Origin: Leptothermofonsia sichuanensis E412
Lineage (GTDB): Bacteria > Cyanobacteriota > Cyanobacteriia > Leptolyngbyales > Leptolyngbyaceae
Length of the DNA stretch: 64,000 nt
Direction of reading: 5' to 3'
Assembly (NCBI RefSeq): GCF_019891175.1
Contig: NZ_CP072600.1
Location: 248,001-312,000, forward strand
The notes under the pieces were generated by a model. That model saw only the letters and a program-made list of their open reading frames with translations, had not been told where the DNA came from and ran no database searches. The translations under genes were made by a program, and so were the position numbers. Position 1 is the first letter of the stretch. Each line of letters starts with the position of its first letter. Shown here one piece after another: positions 5,556-20,090 of the stretch.

Positions 5556-7316
5556 TCACGCAGCAGAGCGCCAATGGCTTTGTCGGATTGGAATTTGAAT
5601 CATAAATTCAGTTCCCTGACCCGGTGCAGAAATGCACTGGAGCGTCCCTTTATGTCGCTCGGTAATGATCTGATGGCTGATCGACATTCCCATTCCAGTT
5701 CCTTTGCCGACAGGCTTGGTCGTGAAGAATGGGTCGAACAATCGTTTCTGAATACCCTCAGACATACCGGGACCGTTATCGGCGATGCGGATCAGGATGT
5801 AGTCCTGGTCAATCTGTTCGGTTTGAATCTTAATCATTGGGGATTCTTTTAACCCATTATCTATAGCATCTGATACAGAGGTTTTCATCTGCTCGTCTAA
5901 GGCATCGATCGCGTTGCTCAAAATATTCATAAACACCTGATTGAGTTGCCCCGCATAACATTCAACCCTGGGCAAATTACCATAGGCTTTGATCACGGAG
6001 ATAGCTGGATGATCTGGTTTGGCTTTCAGTCGGTTTTGGAGAATCATCAGGGTACTATCGATCCCTTCATGAATATCAACATCCTTCACTTCTGCCTCAT
6101 CCAGCCGTGAGAACGCTCGCAGGGATTGCACAATTTCACGAATGCGATCAGCCCCAACCTTCATTGAAGAAAGCAACTTAGGCAAATCATCCTTCAGAAA
6201 CTCCAAATCGATTTCATCAGCCAGTTCCTGCACGGCTGGGGCGGGGCTGGGGTAGTGCTGCTGATAGATTTCTAATAACTTCAGTAAGTCCTGAGCATAT
6301 TGATTGGCATGGTGAATATTGCCATGAATAAAATTGACCGGATTATTGATTTCATGGGCAACTCCTGCCACTAACTGCCCCAGGCTGGACATTTTCTCAC
6401 TCTGAACCAGTTGCGTTTGAGCCTGGCGCAATTCCTGCAAGGTTTTTTCTAACTCCTGGGATTTGCTTCGCTCTCTTGCTTCGCTTTCCCGCAGCACCGC
6501 CTCTACCTGTTTCCGCTGGTAAACTTCTGCCTGCAACTGATCGTAAGCCTCTAACTGTTTGATCACGGTATCAAAGGTGGTTGCCAGAAACCGGATCTCG
6601 TTGGCAGGAATATTACCCGGCATCACAAAGACCCCTGTTTTTTTACTCTGGGCAACCGCATCATTAAGAGCATTGAGGGGACGCAGCACGCTCTGATGAA
6701 TCAGGATTGCTGTAAACAGTAAGATCGCAACAATGCCCCCCACCAGAGTCAGTGTGGAGGTCAGGAAGGTTCTTTCAGCGTCCTGCCGCATTTTCTGGAG
6801 GTCGATGATGGCGATCGCTAACCCCCGTTGTCCAGACAGACCAAATAAGGTACTGCTGAAGGGCAAAATTTCTGCCATTACAGGTCTATTATCGACCTGC
6901 ATTTCATGGCTGACTGCCAGACCCGTCATAGAAGCCCGTTCCATAGCCTGAGTCAACTCAGGATGCAGCTTTTTATAGGGCTGATCCCTGACATCGAGGG
7001 AACTGTGCGCCAGCACCAATCCATCGGGACTGACAATGGCAATTTCCATCACCGCTGGCAGGGTTGCATAGTTCTGCACTGTTCGCCGCAAAAGGCTTCT
7101 GTGCTCCAGTTCCAGCAATCCTTCTGTGGCAAATTCCAGCGATTGGGTAATCGACTGTGCCTGCTGTTTTACCTGTTGAGCTAAATCTGCCTGGATCAAC
7201 CGATAGTTGACCCACAAAGTCGCGGCTCCAACGGTCGCCAGCGAAATCCCAACCCCCAACAGGAGTCGCTTTGATAAACTTTGTTTACGGAGAAACTGGT
7301 TGCTCAAGATTTCCAC
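5556..7316 (-). CDS. membrane sensor histidine kinase, partner of an ABC-type binding protein
   Basis: 586 residues. One transmembrane segment lies at about 18-42, a periplasmic sensing region at 43-184, a second membrane segment at 185-207, then a HAMP-like stretch and a coiled coil (255-305). The dimerisation domain has the phospho-acceptor His in GVAHEINNPVNF (His321). The ATPase domain shows VFMNILSNAIDAL, IADNGPGM and FDPFFTTKPVGKGTGMGM. All catalytic boxes are present. The gene begins 13 bases inside the upstream binding-protein gene, so the two are surely cotranscribed. No response regulator lies nearby. The likely role is sensing whatever the binding protein captures; the ligand is unknown. 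Confidence 0.9.
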   Translation of the reverse strand: MEILSNQFLRKQSLSKRLLLGVGISLATVGAATLWVNYRLIQADLAQQVKQQAQSITQSLEFATEGLLELEHRSLLRRTVQNYATLPAVMEIAIVSPDGLVLAHSSLDVRDQPYKKLHPELTQAMERASMTGLAVSHEMQVDNRPVMAEILPFSSTLFGLSGQRGLAIAIIDLQKMRQDAERTFLTSTLTLVGGIVAILLFTAILIHQSVLRPLNALNDAVAQSKKTGVFVMPGNIPANEIRFLATTFDTVIKQLEAYDQLQAEVYQRKQVEAVLRESEARERSKSQELEKTLQELRQAQTQLVQSEKMSSLGQLVAGVAHEINNPVNFIHGNIHHANQYAQDLLKLLEIYQQHYPSPAPAVQELADEIDLEFLKDDLPKLLSSMKVGADRIREIVQSLRAFSRLDEAEVKDVDIHEGIDSTLMILQNRLKAKPDHPAISVIKAYGNLPRVECYAGQLNQVFMNILSNAIDALDEQMKTSVSDAIDNGLKESPMIKIQTEQIDQDYILIRIADNGPGMSEGIQKRLFDPFFTTKPVGKGTGMGMSISHQIITERHKGTLQCISAPGQGTEFMIQIPIRQSHWRSAA

Positions 7317-8332
7317 CCTTTAATTGCAGCCATCACTGGTTCAGCGCTAATTTCCACATCTTCGCGAGCCATGCGCCCATGTCGGGGGTCTTCTCGCAGG
7401 AGCTGGGCTAATTGTTGGGTTGCCCCTCTCAGGCGACCTTCTGATTGAAACATGCGTTTCTGCATTTCAATGTCGCCTTTTTTGAGTCCACTGTAGTCAC
7501 TGGCAAAGGATTTACCACTTTGCCCCAACACCTTACCCACCTGTTCAAATACCTCATCAGGCCTGGTGTCTACGGCAGCCATCACTTCAAACCAGGTAGA
7601 GATGAACCGGGTCAGTTCGGCCTGTTTGGAATTCACCACCTGCGATCGCGACATCAGAGTATCAATGACCAGGCTGTCCAGATCTTTCGTTGTAAAAACA
7701 ATATTTCCCTTAATTTTCTTTGCCGTCTCCCCCAGCATCGGTTCCCACAACACAGCCCCGTCCAACTTGCCCTGCTCCATCATCTGGGCCGCCGTTTCGT
7801 TAGAAACATCTTCGATCGTGACTTCCCTGGGGTTGACCTGGTGCAACTTCAACGCCTCCAGCAGGATGAGATGGTTCACCGTACCCAGTTTTGCCCCTAC
7901 CCGCTTACCCCGCAGGTCCGTAACAGACTGAATTCCAGGTTGAGCAATCATGCCATCGGCACCGTGGGAGATATTGCTGACCATAATCACAACAGGCTTA
8001 TCATTGCCAGGATCGACCTGCATCACATCCCACAGGGAGGCAAAAGTCGCATCCAGAGAACCCCGAAGCACAGCACGGGCAGAGTCTTGCTGGTTTTCAA
8101 AGCGGACCAGTTCCACATCCAGTCCATTTTTTTGGAACAGCCCCGCTTCCCTGGCATACAGTGCAATATCAAAACCAGGCCAGGGTGTAATCCCGACTTT
8201 CAGTGGCTGCAATCGGGTTTGCCCAGGACTACAGGCATTCAAAATCAGACTCGTGATGAGCGCAATCAGAAACAATCCTCCTAACCACCAGCCTTGTCCT
8301 GTTCTGGCTCTACTGGTTACTATCTGGAGCAT
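7304..8332 (-). CDS. NitT/TauT/SsuA-like substrate-binding lipoprotein
   Basis: A 342-residue exported protein. It has a basic N-terminus, a hydrophobic core and a lipobox LNAC (Cys34), then LKVGITPWPGFDIALYAREAGLF, which is typical of periplasmic binding proteins for nitrate, taurine or thiamine precursors. Further family marks are LRGSLDATFASLWDV, LRGKRVGAKLGT and DGAVLWEPM. No permease or ATPase gene is next to it. Instead its 3' end overlaps a sensor kinase by 13 bases, suggesting a sensory rather than a transport job. Ligand not predictable from sequence alone. Confidence 0.88.
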   Translation of the reverse strand: MLQIVTSRARTGQGWWLGGLFLIALITSLILNACSPGQTRLQPLKVGITPWPGFDIALYAREAGLFQKNGLDVELVRFENQQDSARAVLRGSLDATFASLWDVMQVDPGNDKPVVIMVSNISHGADGMIAQPGIQSVTDLRGKRVGAKLGTVNHLILLEALKLHQVNPREVTIEDVSNETAAQMMEQGKLDGAVLWEPMLGETAKKIKGNIVFTTKDLDSLVIDTLMSRSQVVNSKQAELTRFISTWFEVMAAVDTRPDEVFEQVGKVLGQSGKSFASDYSGLKKGDIEMQKRMFQSEGRLRGATQQLAQLLREDPRHGRMAREDVEISAEPVMAAIKGWKS

Positions 8333-8504
8333 GGTTTACCTCTGAGTAGGGGGGGTGAGCAATTTTTCACTTTCAATATGCCCAACCCCACCCTCAGGCT
8401 CACAACCGAAGGGCTAAATTTATAGCGATCGCTTCGTCAAACGGTAATTTTTGCCAGGACAGTTCAGGCATTATCAGTGCGTCTTATTTGCAACCGTTGC
8501 AAGC

Positions 8505-8915
8505 TCAGTCTTCCACGCCTGCGATCGGCTGGAAGTTCCTGACCCACTCCTGACCCTGGCGCTCGACTCGAAACTTAAACACATGGCTCTTGCCCCGATC
8601 GCTGGTCAGCGAAGCGTCCGATGTAAGCATCTTCATCCGGGTTAAATAGCCAGTTGTTGTCCTGGTTGGGTGGGTTGCCAGCGTCATCGGTGATGGAGCT
8701 GATACCGTCTTTGTAACCCTTCTCGCCTGAACTCAGAAGGAAGCGAAGCATGGCGGGGGCGACTTTGTTCAACTGCTCCGGCGTGGCGGACTCTGGCAAA
8801 GATTCGGCAAAATCAAGCTCTCCCAGGGATTCGGAGAGGTCTTGCTCAAAGCTCAGTTCCAGTTCCAGCTTGTTCAGGTAAAAGGGGAAGAGGCATGGCG
8901 ATCGGGTGGAGTGTC
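8505..8915 (-). pseudogene. broken phage-type gene (unknown function)
   Basis: Two minus-strand pieces join across a frameshift near 8580. The first reads YLNKLELELSFEQDLSESLG...ATPEQLNKVAPAMLRFLLSS...NPDEDAYIGRFADQRSGQEP, and the second continues VFKFRVERQGQEWVRNFQPI. There is no start codon for the first piece, and the frame upstream changes again. It lies downstream of the broken portal gene on the same strand, so I read it as another decayed prophage gene. No family recognised. Confidence 0.55.
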
Positions 8916-8948
8916 GCCTTTAGGATGCCCGTTGAGGGTTAACTGTCT

Positions 8949-9137
8949 TCATCCTCGTCTTCGTCGTCTTCGTCCTCTTCGCCTCTCTGCCTTTTTTCCC
9001 GCCACCTCAGCGATCCTCGCCTCGCGCAGTTTCTCAACCTCAGCCAGCATCTTTCGCAGAAAGGGTATGACCGTTTTGTGGGTTAAGCCCTGCTTTTCTA
9101 ATTGTTCGACCGCTCCATAAAACCAATCTGGGAGCAT
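8949..9137 (-). pseudogene. small phage-type protein, probably frameshifted near its end
   Basis: 62 residues starting MLPDWFYGAVEQLEKQG, with a helical KMLAEVEKLREARIAEV region. After an A6 run (GGGAAAAAAGG) the present frame ends in poly-arginine. The next frame instead gives an acidic tail, RGEEDEDDEDEDEDS, then stop, which looks far more like a protein. I infer a one-base indel in the A-run. It may still be translated. Function unknown. Confidence 0.45.
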
Positions 9138-9180
9138 TGAGTCTCCCGCCTCGGCATTAAACTGGAAGCAGGAGGTTTCT

Positions 9181-9780
9181 ATGACGCAAGCAGCCAGAAA
9201 ACTCACGTTTGAGGAATACGCCAGTCTGGATGCGGAGGACTGGGCACGGCTGGGACTGCCAGAGGGACGGTGTGAGTATTGGGATGGGGAGTTGTTTGAA
9301 TTGCCGACCGAATCAGAGCCAAACGACTTTATTGCCAATTTCCTGATGTTCCTGCTGGCAAGCACCGGAGTGATTCCGCTTCGATTAATCCGCCCTCATT
9401 CCTGTGAAATTGAGGTTTCAGGCAGACCCCGCACCCGATACCCCGACCTGGTAATTCTCAGGGATGAACATATCTCTGCAACCAAAAGACGATTATTCAT
9501 CACCCTCAAGATGGCACCACCCCAACTGGTTGCAGAAGTGGTTAGCCCTGGAAATGCGAACCAGAGACGAGACTATGAGGCAAAGCGCACCCAGTACCAG
9601 GAACGCGGCATCCCAGAATACTGGTTGATTGACCCCGATCAGCAGAGCATTACCGTGCTGGTACTGGAAAACGGGAAGTACCGGGAGTCTGGTTGCTTTA
9701 AAGGCAGCGATCGCGTGGTTTCTCCTGCGTTCCCTACCCTGACACTGACAGCCGATCAACTGTTTGCAGGCAGTTCCTGA
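9181..9780 (+). CDS. Uma2-family PD-(D/E)XK nuclease-like protein
   Basis: 199 residues of the Uma2/DUF820 family, highly expanded in cyanobacteria. Seen: LTFEEYASL at the N-terminus, GRCEYWDGELFEL, RYPDLVIL (catalytic Asp region), QLVAEVVSPGN (Glu-x-Val) and YQERGIPEYWLIDPDQQ. It has a strong ribosome site (AGGAGG, 6 bases upstream). The gene lies within a decayed prophage but is intact and on the opposite strand; its 3' end overlaps the end of the portal pseudogene by 25 bases. The biological role of this family is not established; nuclease fold is known, substrate is not. Confidence 0.85.
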   Translation: MTQAARKLTFEEYASLDAEDWARLGLPEGRCEYWDGELFELPTESEPNDFIANFLMFLLASTGVIPLRLIRPHSCEIEVSGRPRTRYPDLVILRDEHISATKRRLFITLKMAPPQLVAEVVSPGNANQRRDYEAKRTQYQERGIPEYWLIDPDQQSITVLVLENGKYRESGCFKGSDRVVSPAFPTLTLTADQLFAGSS

Positions 9781-19352: not shown

Positions 19353-20090
19353 ATGCCCGACCCCGCTCCCCTACTCGAAGTCCAAAACGTTTTTGCTGGC
19401 TATATTCGAGATCTCGACATTTTGCAGGGGGTCAATTTCAAAATTTACCCCGGTGAGATGGTGGCGGTAATCGGTCCCAATGGTGCCGGCAAATCAACCC
19501 TGGCAAAAACAATTTTTGGACTGCTATCTCCCCATCAGGGCAGTATTTTATTTCAGGGGCAGTCAATCGCCGGACTGAAGTCAGATCGAATTGTGCAGCT
19601 TGGGATGGGCTATGTGCCCCAAATTGCCAATGTGTTTCGCTCGCTGACAGTAGAAGAAAACCTGGAAATGGGAGCATTTGTTCAGAGAAATGCTTCATTG
19701 CCAGCTTTAAAGGAAGAAATTTTTATGCGCTTTCCTAAACTGGCAGAGCGCCGGAAGCAGCGGGCAGGTACCCTCTCTGGTGGAGAACGCCAGATGCTGG
19801 CAATGGGGAAAGCTCTGATGCTGAAGCCAACGCTGTTGTTGTTGGATGAGCCGTCAGCCGCCCTGTCTCCGATTCTGGTCAATAGTGTGTTTGACCAGAT
19901 TAAGCAGATTAATCAGGCTGGAACAGCAATTGTTCTGGTTGAACAGAACGCTCGTAAAGCGCTGGAGATGTCCGATCGCGGCTATGTGCTGGAAGCAGGG
20001 CGCGATCGGTTTGAGGGGAGTGGTGCCGCTTTGCTGAACAATCCCAAAGTCGGTGAACTCTATCTCGGTGTCACAACCGACTCGCTCTGA
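19353..20090 (+). CDS. LivF/NatE-type ABC transporter ATPase
   Basis: 245 residues. Walker A GPNGAGKST, Q-loop YVPQIANVF, signature LSGGERQML, Walker B LLLLDEPSAAL and switch His replaced by Gln-rich VEQNARKAL, a hallmark of branched-chain/neutral amino-acid or urea transporters of the HAAT class. Energises uptake at the inner face of the plasma membrane. The matching permease, binding protein and second ATPase (LivG type) are not in the window, so this is a dispersed subunit, as is common for the cyanobacterial Nat systems. Its 3' end overlaps the convergent MerR gene by 20 bases. Confidence 0.9.
   Translation: MPDPAPLLEVQNVFAGYIRDLDILQGVNFKIYPGEMVAVIGPNGAGKSTLAKTIFGLLSPHQGSILFQGQSIAGLKSDRIVQLGMGYVPQIANVFRSLTVEENLEMGAFVQRNASLPALKEEIFMRFPKLAERRKQRAGTLSGGERQMLAMGKALMLKPTLLLLDEPSAALSPILVNSVFDQIKQINQAGTAIVLVEQNARKALEMSDRGYVLEAGRDRFEGSGAALLNNPKVGELYLGVTTDSL

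Follow-up and report, generated by a model that had tools for sequence, protein, structure and literature searches.

What does a substrate-binding lipoprotein do when its gene overlaps that of a sensor kinase and no transporter is encoded beside it? The question is raised by a gene pair in a stretch of 64,000 nucleotides of Leptothermofonsia sichuanensis E412 (hereafter the window; positions 248001-312000 of the one contig, 6.43 Mb, of this genome, G000), in which a lipoprotein gene of the NMT1/SsuA type is transcribed first and that of a transmembrane histidine kinase second, both on the minus strand. An earlier interpretation made from the DNA alone (the sequence-only reading) had proposed that the lipoprotein presents its ligand to the kinase. 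We observed the pairing of the two genes, their conservation, the predicted folds of their products, the exchange of output domains behind the sensor and, in one genus, the exchange of the binding protein. We consider it probable that the lipoprotein acts as a dedicated co-sensor that binds a ligand, docks on the Cache domain of the kinase and no longer serves a transporter. Such a two-part receptor is the simplest reading because the lipoprotein and the sensor are conserved, a transporter is lacking, the outputs are exchangeable and the binding protein has been exchanged once.

Pairing of the lipoprotein with the kinase

Orthologues of the lipoprotein were collected from three sources. A search in 39 genomes, those of the window and its relatives, gave some match at E<=1e-20 in 32, with orthologues of 47-100% identity in only 7 of the 39 and mostly paralogues of 22-31% in the others; a phylum sample of 386 cyanobacterial genomes gave matches at E<=1e-40 in 15; and a scan of genome contigs in the named collection gave 16 loci. 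After removal of double counts (7 + 15, two being common to both, + 16), 36 distinct orthologous loci were fetched (L052-L087), and the relatives found in the named genome collection are cyanobacteria. A sensor kinase gene lies directly downstream on the same strand in 35 of the 36 loci (15/15 from the phylum sample, 7/7 from the relatives and 15/16 from the contig scan). At the 36th locus, L067, both genes are truncated and run together; we considered it as a natural lipoprotein-kinase fusion of the Rosetta stone type and rejected this, because truncation of both halves indicates decay. Joint decay of both genes was found in G414.

The spacing between the two genes is -13 in 26 of the 35 pairs; seven others have -10, -19, +2 (twice), +4, +6 and +13, and the remaining two +106 and +124. 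The first start codon of the kinase is present in all 26 pairs of the -13 geometry, and 23 of these have ATG or TTG at the fourth codon as well; in the window, a TTG 9 bases further in is an alternative start, giving a 4-base TTGA overlap inside the 13-base one. The depositor's annotation of a copy on a plasmid of Nostoc sp. HK-01, which names the two products 'hypothetical protein' and 'integral membrane sensor signal transduction histidine kinase', uses the 4-base overlap. The distances among lipoproteins and those among sensors correlate with r = 0.95 over 34 pairs (0/2000 permutations as high), which is weak evidence, as species kinship was not controlled. L068 was left out of this comparison (G006:C1:2041000-2058000, 5858-7696); in this locus, the closest relative, the lipoprotein is intact and a frame change near residue 390 disrupts the kinase, reflecting either sequencing error or decay.

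The link is found also when searched in reverse. A search with residues 1-240 of the kinase gave matches in 19/386 genomes, and a profile of the sensor alignment gave 20 full-length copies in 17/386 genomes at 285-443 bits, followed by three fragments (G163, G152 and G414) at 70-170 bits; matches of 50 bits or less extend mostly over the latter half of the profile, and the family is thus cleanly separated. Fifteen of the 20 full-length copies adjoin an NMT1 lipoprotein, one (G329) adjoins the last 125 residues of a lipoprotein, and one (G242) adjoins a binding protein of the PhnD type; the other three (G013, G071 and G375) are second copies lacking such a neighbor in genomes that carry an intact pair elsewhere. 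A search in the order to which G242 belongs found the sensor in 16/120 genomes and gave nine new copies, all of which were fetched. Five of the nine adjoin an NMT1 lipoprotein (L172, L173, L175, L177 and L178; the contig of L177 ends inside the lipoprotein gene), two (L170 and L171) adjoin the PhnD type, one (L174) is a lone second copy in a genome that has a pair, and the ninth (L176) has a lipoprotein remnant with stops directly upstream. The co-occurrence that the sequence-only reading proposed to look for is therefore evident from the lipoprotein side and, for most sensor copies, from the sensor side.

Gene order beyond the pair is common only to closely related genomes, for example in the Nostoc group, and the 20 flanking genes assigned by Pfam include those for shikimate kinase, chorismate synthase, a methyltransferase, a glycosyltransferase, an aminotransferase, glyoxalase and glutamate dehydrogenase, with no ABC (ATP-binding cassette) component and no receiver among the 20. 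Pairing in 35/36 loci amid so many unrelated neighborhoods, together with the reverse link, the joint decay and the appearance of another binding-protein class in the same role (see below), makes it very improbable that two unrelated genes are simply co-transcribed and have stayed together through drift or a single mobile element; just one intact unlinked lipoprotein copy (L180) was found. The patchy distribution and the HK-01 plasmid copy, which lies before a transposase gene of the IS605 type, are the observations that such an explanation would accommodate. Chance open reading frames (ORFs) or misannotation were also considered and rejected in view of both ORFs, their Pfam matches and the pairing across loci.

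Search for a transporter

We looked for a transporter by BLAST, using as queries four permease-like proteins and five ATPases from the NMT1 loci of the same genome. No permease was matched, either in the window or across the 36 fetched loci, and the sole ABC ATPase found in the window lies at 19353-20090, 11 kb away from the pair; among the orthologous loci, ABC ATPases were found only in L082 and L084, several kb off. A transporter operon was thus rejected for the fetched stretches, and the binding protein, as judged from these sequence comparisons, appears not to belong to one. This agrees with the sequence-only reading, which had noticed no permease or ATPase near the pair and had named, as the contrary case, homologues of the binding protein encoded next to a complete ABC transporter, with the kinase elsewhere; among the 36 loci we found no NMT1-type permease, the kinase being adjacent in 35.

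Exchange of outputs and of the binding protein

The conserved unit would be the lipoprotein plus the membrane sensor domain, the parts behind the membrane being interchangeable. According to Pfam, the output is a plain kinase in the window, L111 and L114; one or two PAS domains with a kinase in L085, L086 and L112; GAF-kinase in L113; PAS-GAF-kinase-receiver in L083; and PAS-GGDEF-EAL in L084. L059 and L080 have HisKA-HATPase-receiver followed by a separate receiver-kinase, a layout that L066, L077, L079 and L081 resemble by BLAST and length only. In L173 a kinase with two receivers is followed by a receiver and then by HisKA-receiver-SpoIIE, and L174 has the hybrid kinase and receiver of this layout; L175, L176 and L177 have a kinase, a receiver and a receiver-HisKA protein. 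In L083 (G375:C1:1100500-1117500) the pair stands within a run of very long signaling genes on the same strand, encoding 1392, 1035, 1001 and at least 1643 residues, those of 1001 and 1035 residues being hybrid kinases that have PAS or PAS-GAF domains and a receiver.

The soluble receiver-kinase of L059 shares 56% identity with the kinase core of the window (residues 264-580), and the sensor-bearing protein of L059 shares 36% with the window kinase over residues 11-582; the window kinase may be a shortened version of an L059-type relay. No response regulator was recognized beside the window pair, where not every neighbor was run through Pfam. The sequence-only reading had left the regulator of the pair as an orphan to be sought; some relatives have linked receivers (L173 and L175-L177), a SpoIIE phosphatase or cyclic di-GMP (c-di-GMP) domains.

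The input side has also been exchanged. In genus g49, all three sensor-bearing genomes (G242, G453 and G475) have a PhnD-type binding protein as the partner of the sensor. These partners score 206-222 bits against PF12974 (218 bits in G242), above the cut-off of 27; they are read divergently from the kinase in all three genomes, at a distance of 40 bases in G242, and two of them have 72% and 61% identity to that of L111. No homologue of this partner was found at E<=1e-15 in nine other genomes asked. The three PhnD-paired sensors form one clade (support 100/100), which joins the NMT1-paired L172 (93/94) in an unrooted tree in which many forks are weak; since the three copies belong to one lineage, they represent one exchange event and not three. 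The tree omits nine near-copies (L052, L055, L056, L058, L060, L064, L065, L081 and L087), and a label test of orphan copies on it did not rise above shuffles.

Two sensor positions follow the exchange: F62 and Q81 are invariant in 41/41 NMT1-paired copies and in 6/6 copies without an intact adjacent lipoprotein, and in the 3/3 PhnD-paired copies positions 62 and 81 are I or L and T, respectively. This switch is only a pointer to a possible interface. We propose tentatively, with less confidence than we place in the co-sensor role, that the sensor might be a generic reader of binding-protein closure, which accepts two binding-protein classes and drives at least five outputs (kinase; hybrid kinase with receivers; receiver plus SpoIIE phosphatase; receiver-HisKA relay; GGDEF-EAL), F62 and Q81 marking its docking face.

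Lipoprotein family, fold and pocket

The lipoprotein matches NMT1 (PF09084) at 70.0 bits (cut-off 20.5) as well as NMT1_2; its score of 18.5 bits against PF12974, the PhnD/AioX type, falls below the cut-off of 27 and does not place it in that family. Its AlphaFold2 model, built from 35 sequences, has a predicted local distance difference test score (pLDDT) of 91.9, and the best solved structural matches are SsuA (2x26) and TauA (6ssy) of Escherichia coli, with Z of 27.1 each over 281 and 283 residues, followed by proteins for bicarbonate, nitrate and thiamine precursors from the same superfamily. The Pfam score and the predicted fold together assign the protein to the NMT1/SsuA-type binding proteins. 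The signal peptide has the lipobox LNAC with C34 as the Cys, which is aligned with Cys in 32/35 family members (the exceptions are L084, L086 and L087). A lipid anchor is often present also in NMT1 proteins that serve transport in cyanobacteria, CmpA/NrtA for instance, so that by itself it is uninformative on signaling.

The paired lipoproteins form one clade (support 97/95) separate from 18 other NMT1 proteins, in a tree whose very long branches (L016, L119 and L117) do not allow the nearest transport relative to be placed. We compared the pocket with that of TauA, taking the pocket residues as given in PMC6906117 and mapping residue numbers by eye from a profile alignment: D126 and D224 match the amine-binding Glu106 and Asp205, and Trp176 corresponds to W196, while Thr132 is replaced by V152 and Gln30 falls outside the alignment. 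D126 and D224 are common also to the NMT1 paralogues (16/18 and 15/18). Because the TauA match is incomplete and the two acidic residues recur in the paralogues, reading the ligand from the pocket was dropped, and a small anionic or zwitterionic compound of the sulfonate/taurine class is no more than a weak guess.

These features bear on a further explanation, in which the lipoprotein is an orphan transport protein for an importer encoded elsewhere, and the kinase regulates the importer genes while sensing a ligand of its own through the Cache domain. Cache domains often bind ligands themselves, the fold and the pocket, including D126 and D224, are as in transport binding proteins, and other NMT1 loci exist in the same genome. 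However, neither the window nor the 36 loci showed a permease, the lipoproteins form a clade apart from the paralogues, and in g49 a different binding-protein class takes the place of the lipoprotein; we thus judge this explanation improbable.

Kinase and sensor domain

The kinase matches HisKA at 27.1 bits (cut-off 26.9) and HATPase_c at 85.1 bits, and its translation holds HEINNP, NILSNAIDAL, DNGPGMS and GKGTGMGMS, which we take to be kinase motifs. Hydropathy places the transmembrane (TM) segments at about residues 18-36 and 182-214, leaving a periplasmic part of about 142 residues; both ORFs, their 13-base overlap and a periplasmic domain of about the size (~140 residues) given in the sequence-only reading were thus confirmed. 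The region between the two TM segments is predicted to be an extracytoplasmic sensor domain, and it carries the family motif RxVQNYATLP at residues 78-87.

The model of the sensor part (pLDDT 81.7; predicted template modelling score, pTM, 0.58) resembles the extracellular domain of WalK/YycG (5is1; Z 15.5, 2.1 A over 132 residues) and those of CitA and DcuS (Z 12.6-14.8), and chemoreceptor Cache domains match too. The predicted fold is therefore a single Cache as in WalK, CitA and DcuS; at the sequence level, the window kinase matches no Cache family at E<=1, and its relatives match Cache only below the cut-off. In both fold searches with the sensor, the highest-scoring entry was WALK-YYCH, which is an integrative model rather than an experimental map.

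Proposed mechanism and direction of the effect

The lipoprotein would sit in the plasma membrane facing the periplasm and close on a small solute between its two lobes; probably in the closed form, it would dock on the Cache-like domain of the neighboring kinase and change its activity, and phosphate would then go to a response regulator encoded elsewhere. What we infer here is the docking and its dependence on a ligand, the sign of the effect, and the identities of the regulator and the ligand. Regarding the proposal that the lipoprotein presents its ligand to the kinase, the pairing supports the partnership of the two proteins, and the docking and the ligand belong to this inferred part.

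The same co-sensor core with the opposite sign gives another explanation, in which the empty, open lipoprotein is an inhibitor that keeps the kinase off or in phosphatase mode until the ligand or loss of the lipoprotein releases it. As the core is shared, our confidences in the two overlap; taken separately, we regard inhibition as rather unlikely, though less so than an orphan transport role. It would suit the kinases that outlive their lipoprotein (G420 and G329), the second sensor copies without a linked lipoprotein, and the modeled WalK-YycH complex, in which a Cache kinase is bound to an accessory protein. On the other side, 31 invariant columns in the alignment of 35 lipoproteins suggest that ligand binding matters; none of the present results discriminates the sign of regulation.

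Several observations weigh against the lipoprotein as a dedicated co-sensor. The pair is sparse (15/386 genomes). The lipoprotein of G420 is a remnant with stops and that of G329 is reduced to its C-terminal part, the kinase being open in both. Sensor copies without an adjacent lipoprotein occur in G013, G071, G375 and G449 (C166); conversely, an intact lipoprotein in G449 (C105; L180) and a remote homologue in G036 (L074, 31% identity, left out of the orthologue count as not orthologous) have no such kinase beside them. A caution comes also from Pseudomonas aeruginosa, where the ligand-binding domain of AgtS (AgtS-LBD) bound neither the neighboring PA0602 nor AgtB, with or without ligand (Table 1 of PMC11113362). 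The kinases lacking a lipoprotein allow two interpretations. Either the kinase functions by itself, or several kinases depend on a lipoprotein produced from another locus; on the latter view, G013, G071 and G375 would each have a single lipoprotein for two kinases.

Comparison with known systems

Kinases activated by binding proteins are established, and in 10 of the 11 characterized couples covered by PMC11113362 the genes are neighbors. According to PMC9602780, the receptors activated in this way include sensor kinases and c-di-GMP enzymes, and NMT1 is the family named for the nitrate-sulfonate-taurine category of its binding-protein repertoire survey. In the open-access literature we found no report of a histidine kinase on which an NMT1-type protein acts.

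The known system closest in anatomy is AioX-AioS-AioR, which responds to arsenite. As described in PMC5908839, a periplasmic protein of a transport family is encoded there beside the kinase and outside a transporter operon, as in the window; AioX and its orthologues are given as the only signaling members of their own family, to which the PhnD-type partners of the same kinase family in g49 also belong. The window differs in that its binding protein is of the NMT1/SsuA type and no response regulator is linked. In AgtS with PA0602/AgtB, binding-protein genes likewise adjoin the kinase gene, PA0602 lying outside a transporter operon, and the difference in the account of PMC11113362 is that no binding between binding protein and sensor was measured, which makes it a cautionary case for the window pair.

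For the other systems the likeness lies in two-protein sensing. In TorT-TorS, which senses trimethylamine N-oxide, a separate periplasmic binding protein presents the ligand to the kinase, and the comparison made in the sequence-only reading holds as a way of working and does not imply kinship. TorT has the type I periplasmic-binding fold and the sensor of TorS is helical, whereas the window pair combines a predicted SsuA/TauA-like (class II) protein and a Cache-like sensor. NspS-MbaA, a binding protein with a membrane receptor, links polyamines to c-di-GMP, which recalls the GGDEF-EAL output of L084; the receptor of the window is a histidine kinase instead, and the binding-protein family is different. 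XylFII and LuxP are sugar or autoinducer binding proteins of another fold type than that of the window, and XylFII-LytS and LuxP-LuxQ share with it the combination of a binding protein and a kinase. Both couples are named in PMC9602780 and PMC5908839.

If the co-sensor role is true, it places an NMT1/SsuA-type protein in signaling. Co-sensor couples have so far been known mostly one by one, and about 40 pairs with natural exchanges of binding protein and output would make docking, specificity and signal transfer readable from evolution; orphan cyanobacterial kinases would gain a handle on their signals.

Features of the locus and minor observations

Table 1. Coordinates of the gene pair and its parts within the window
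Feature	Position	Strand	Basis
NMT1/SsuA-type substrate-binding lipoprotein, 342 residues	7304..8332	-	ORF, PF09084, family alignment, AlphaFold2 model
Transmembrane sensor histidine kinase, 586 residues	5556..7316	-	ORF, Pfam, sensor model, TM prediction
Predicted kinase architecture: TM1, ~142-residue periplasmic single-Cache-like domain, TM2, linker, HisKA, HATPase_c	5556..7316	-	
13-base gene overlap; the GTG at which the kinase starts lies within the last bases of the lipoprotein gene	7304..7316	-	
Periplasmic sensor domain of the kinase, ~residues 40-181	6774..7199	-	alignment, model, TM prediction

The unlinked lipoprotein gene of L180 (G449:C105, 4368-7718) lies 240 bases before the gene of a 692-residue Ser/Thr protein kinase, possibly a further output or a chance neighbor. 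The remote homologue L074 (G036:C1:3304000-3320000, 5842-8693) adjoins an oppositely read gene for an ABC-2/DUF3526 membrane protein, which is not an SsuC-type permease. In L112 (G375:C1:1857000-1873000, 6646-9595), a kinase of the sensor family stands without a binding protein, directly after a gene for an inward-rectifier-type K+ channel (IRK_C, 89 bits) and before a receiver-kinase gene. The genome of the window also encodes unusual NMT1 proteins (L121, 5411-6943; L117, 6260-9501; L123, 5428-7008), among which a weak C-terminal NosL match, an OprB porin gene following, and fusion to an OmpA domain were noticed.

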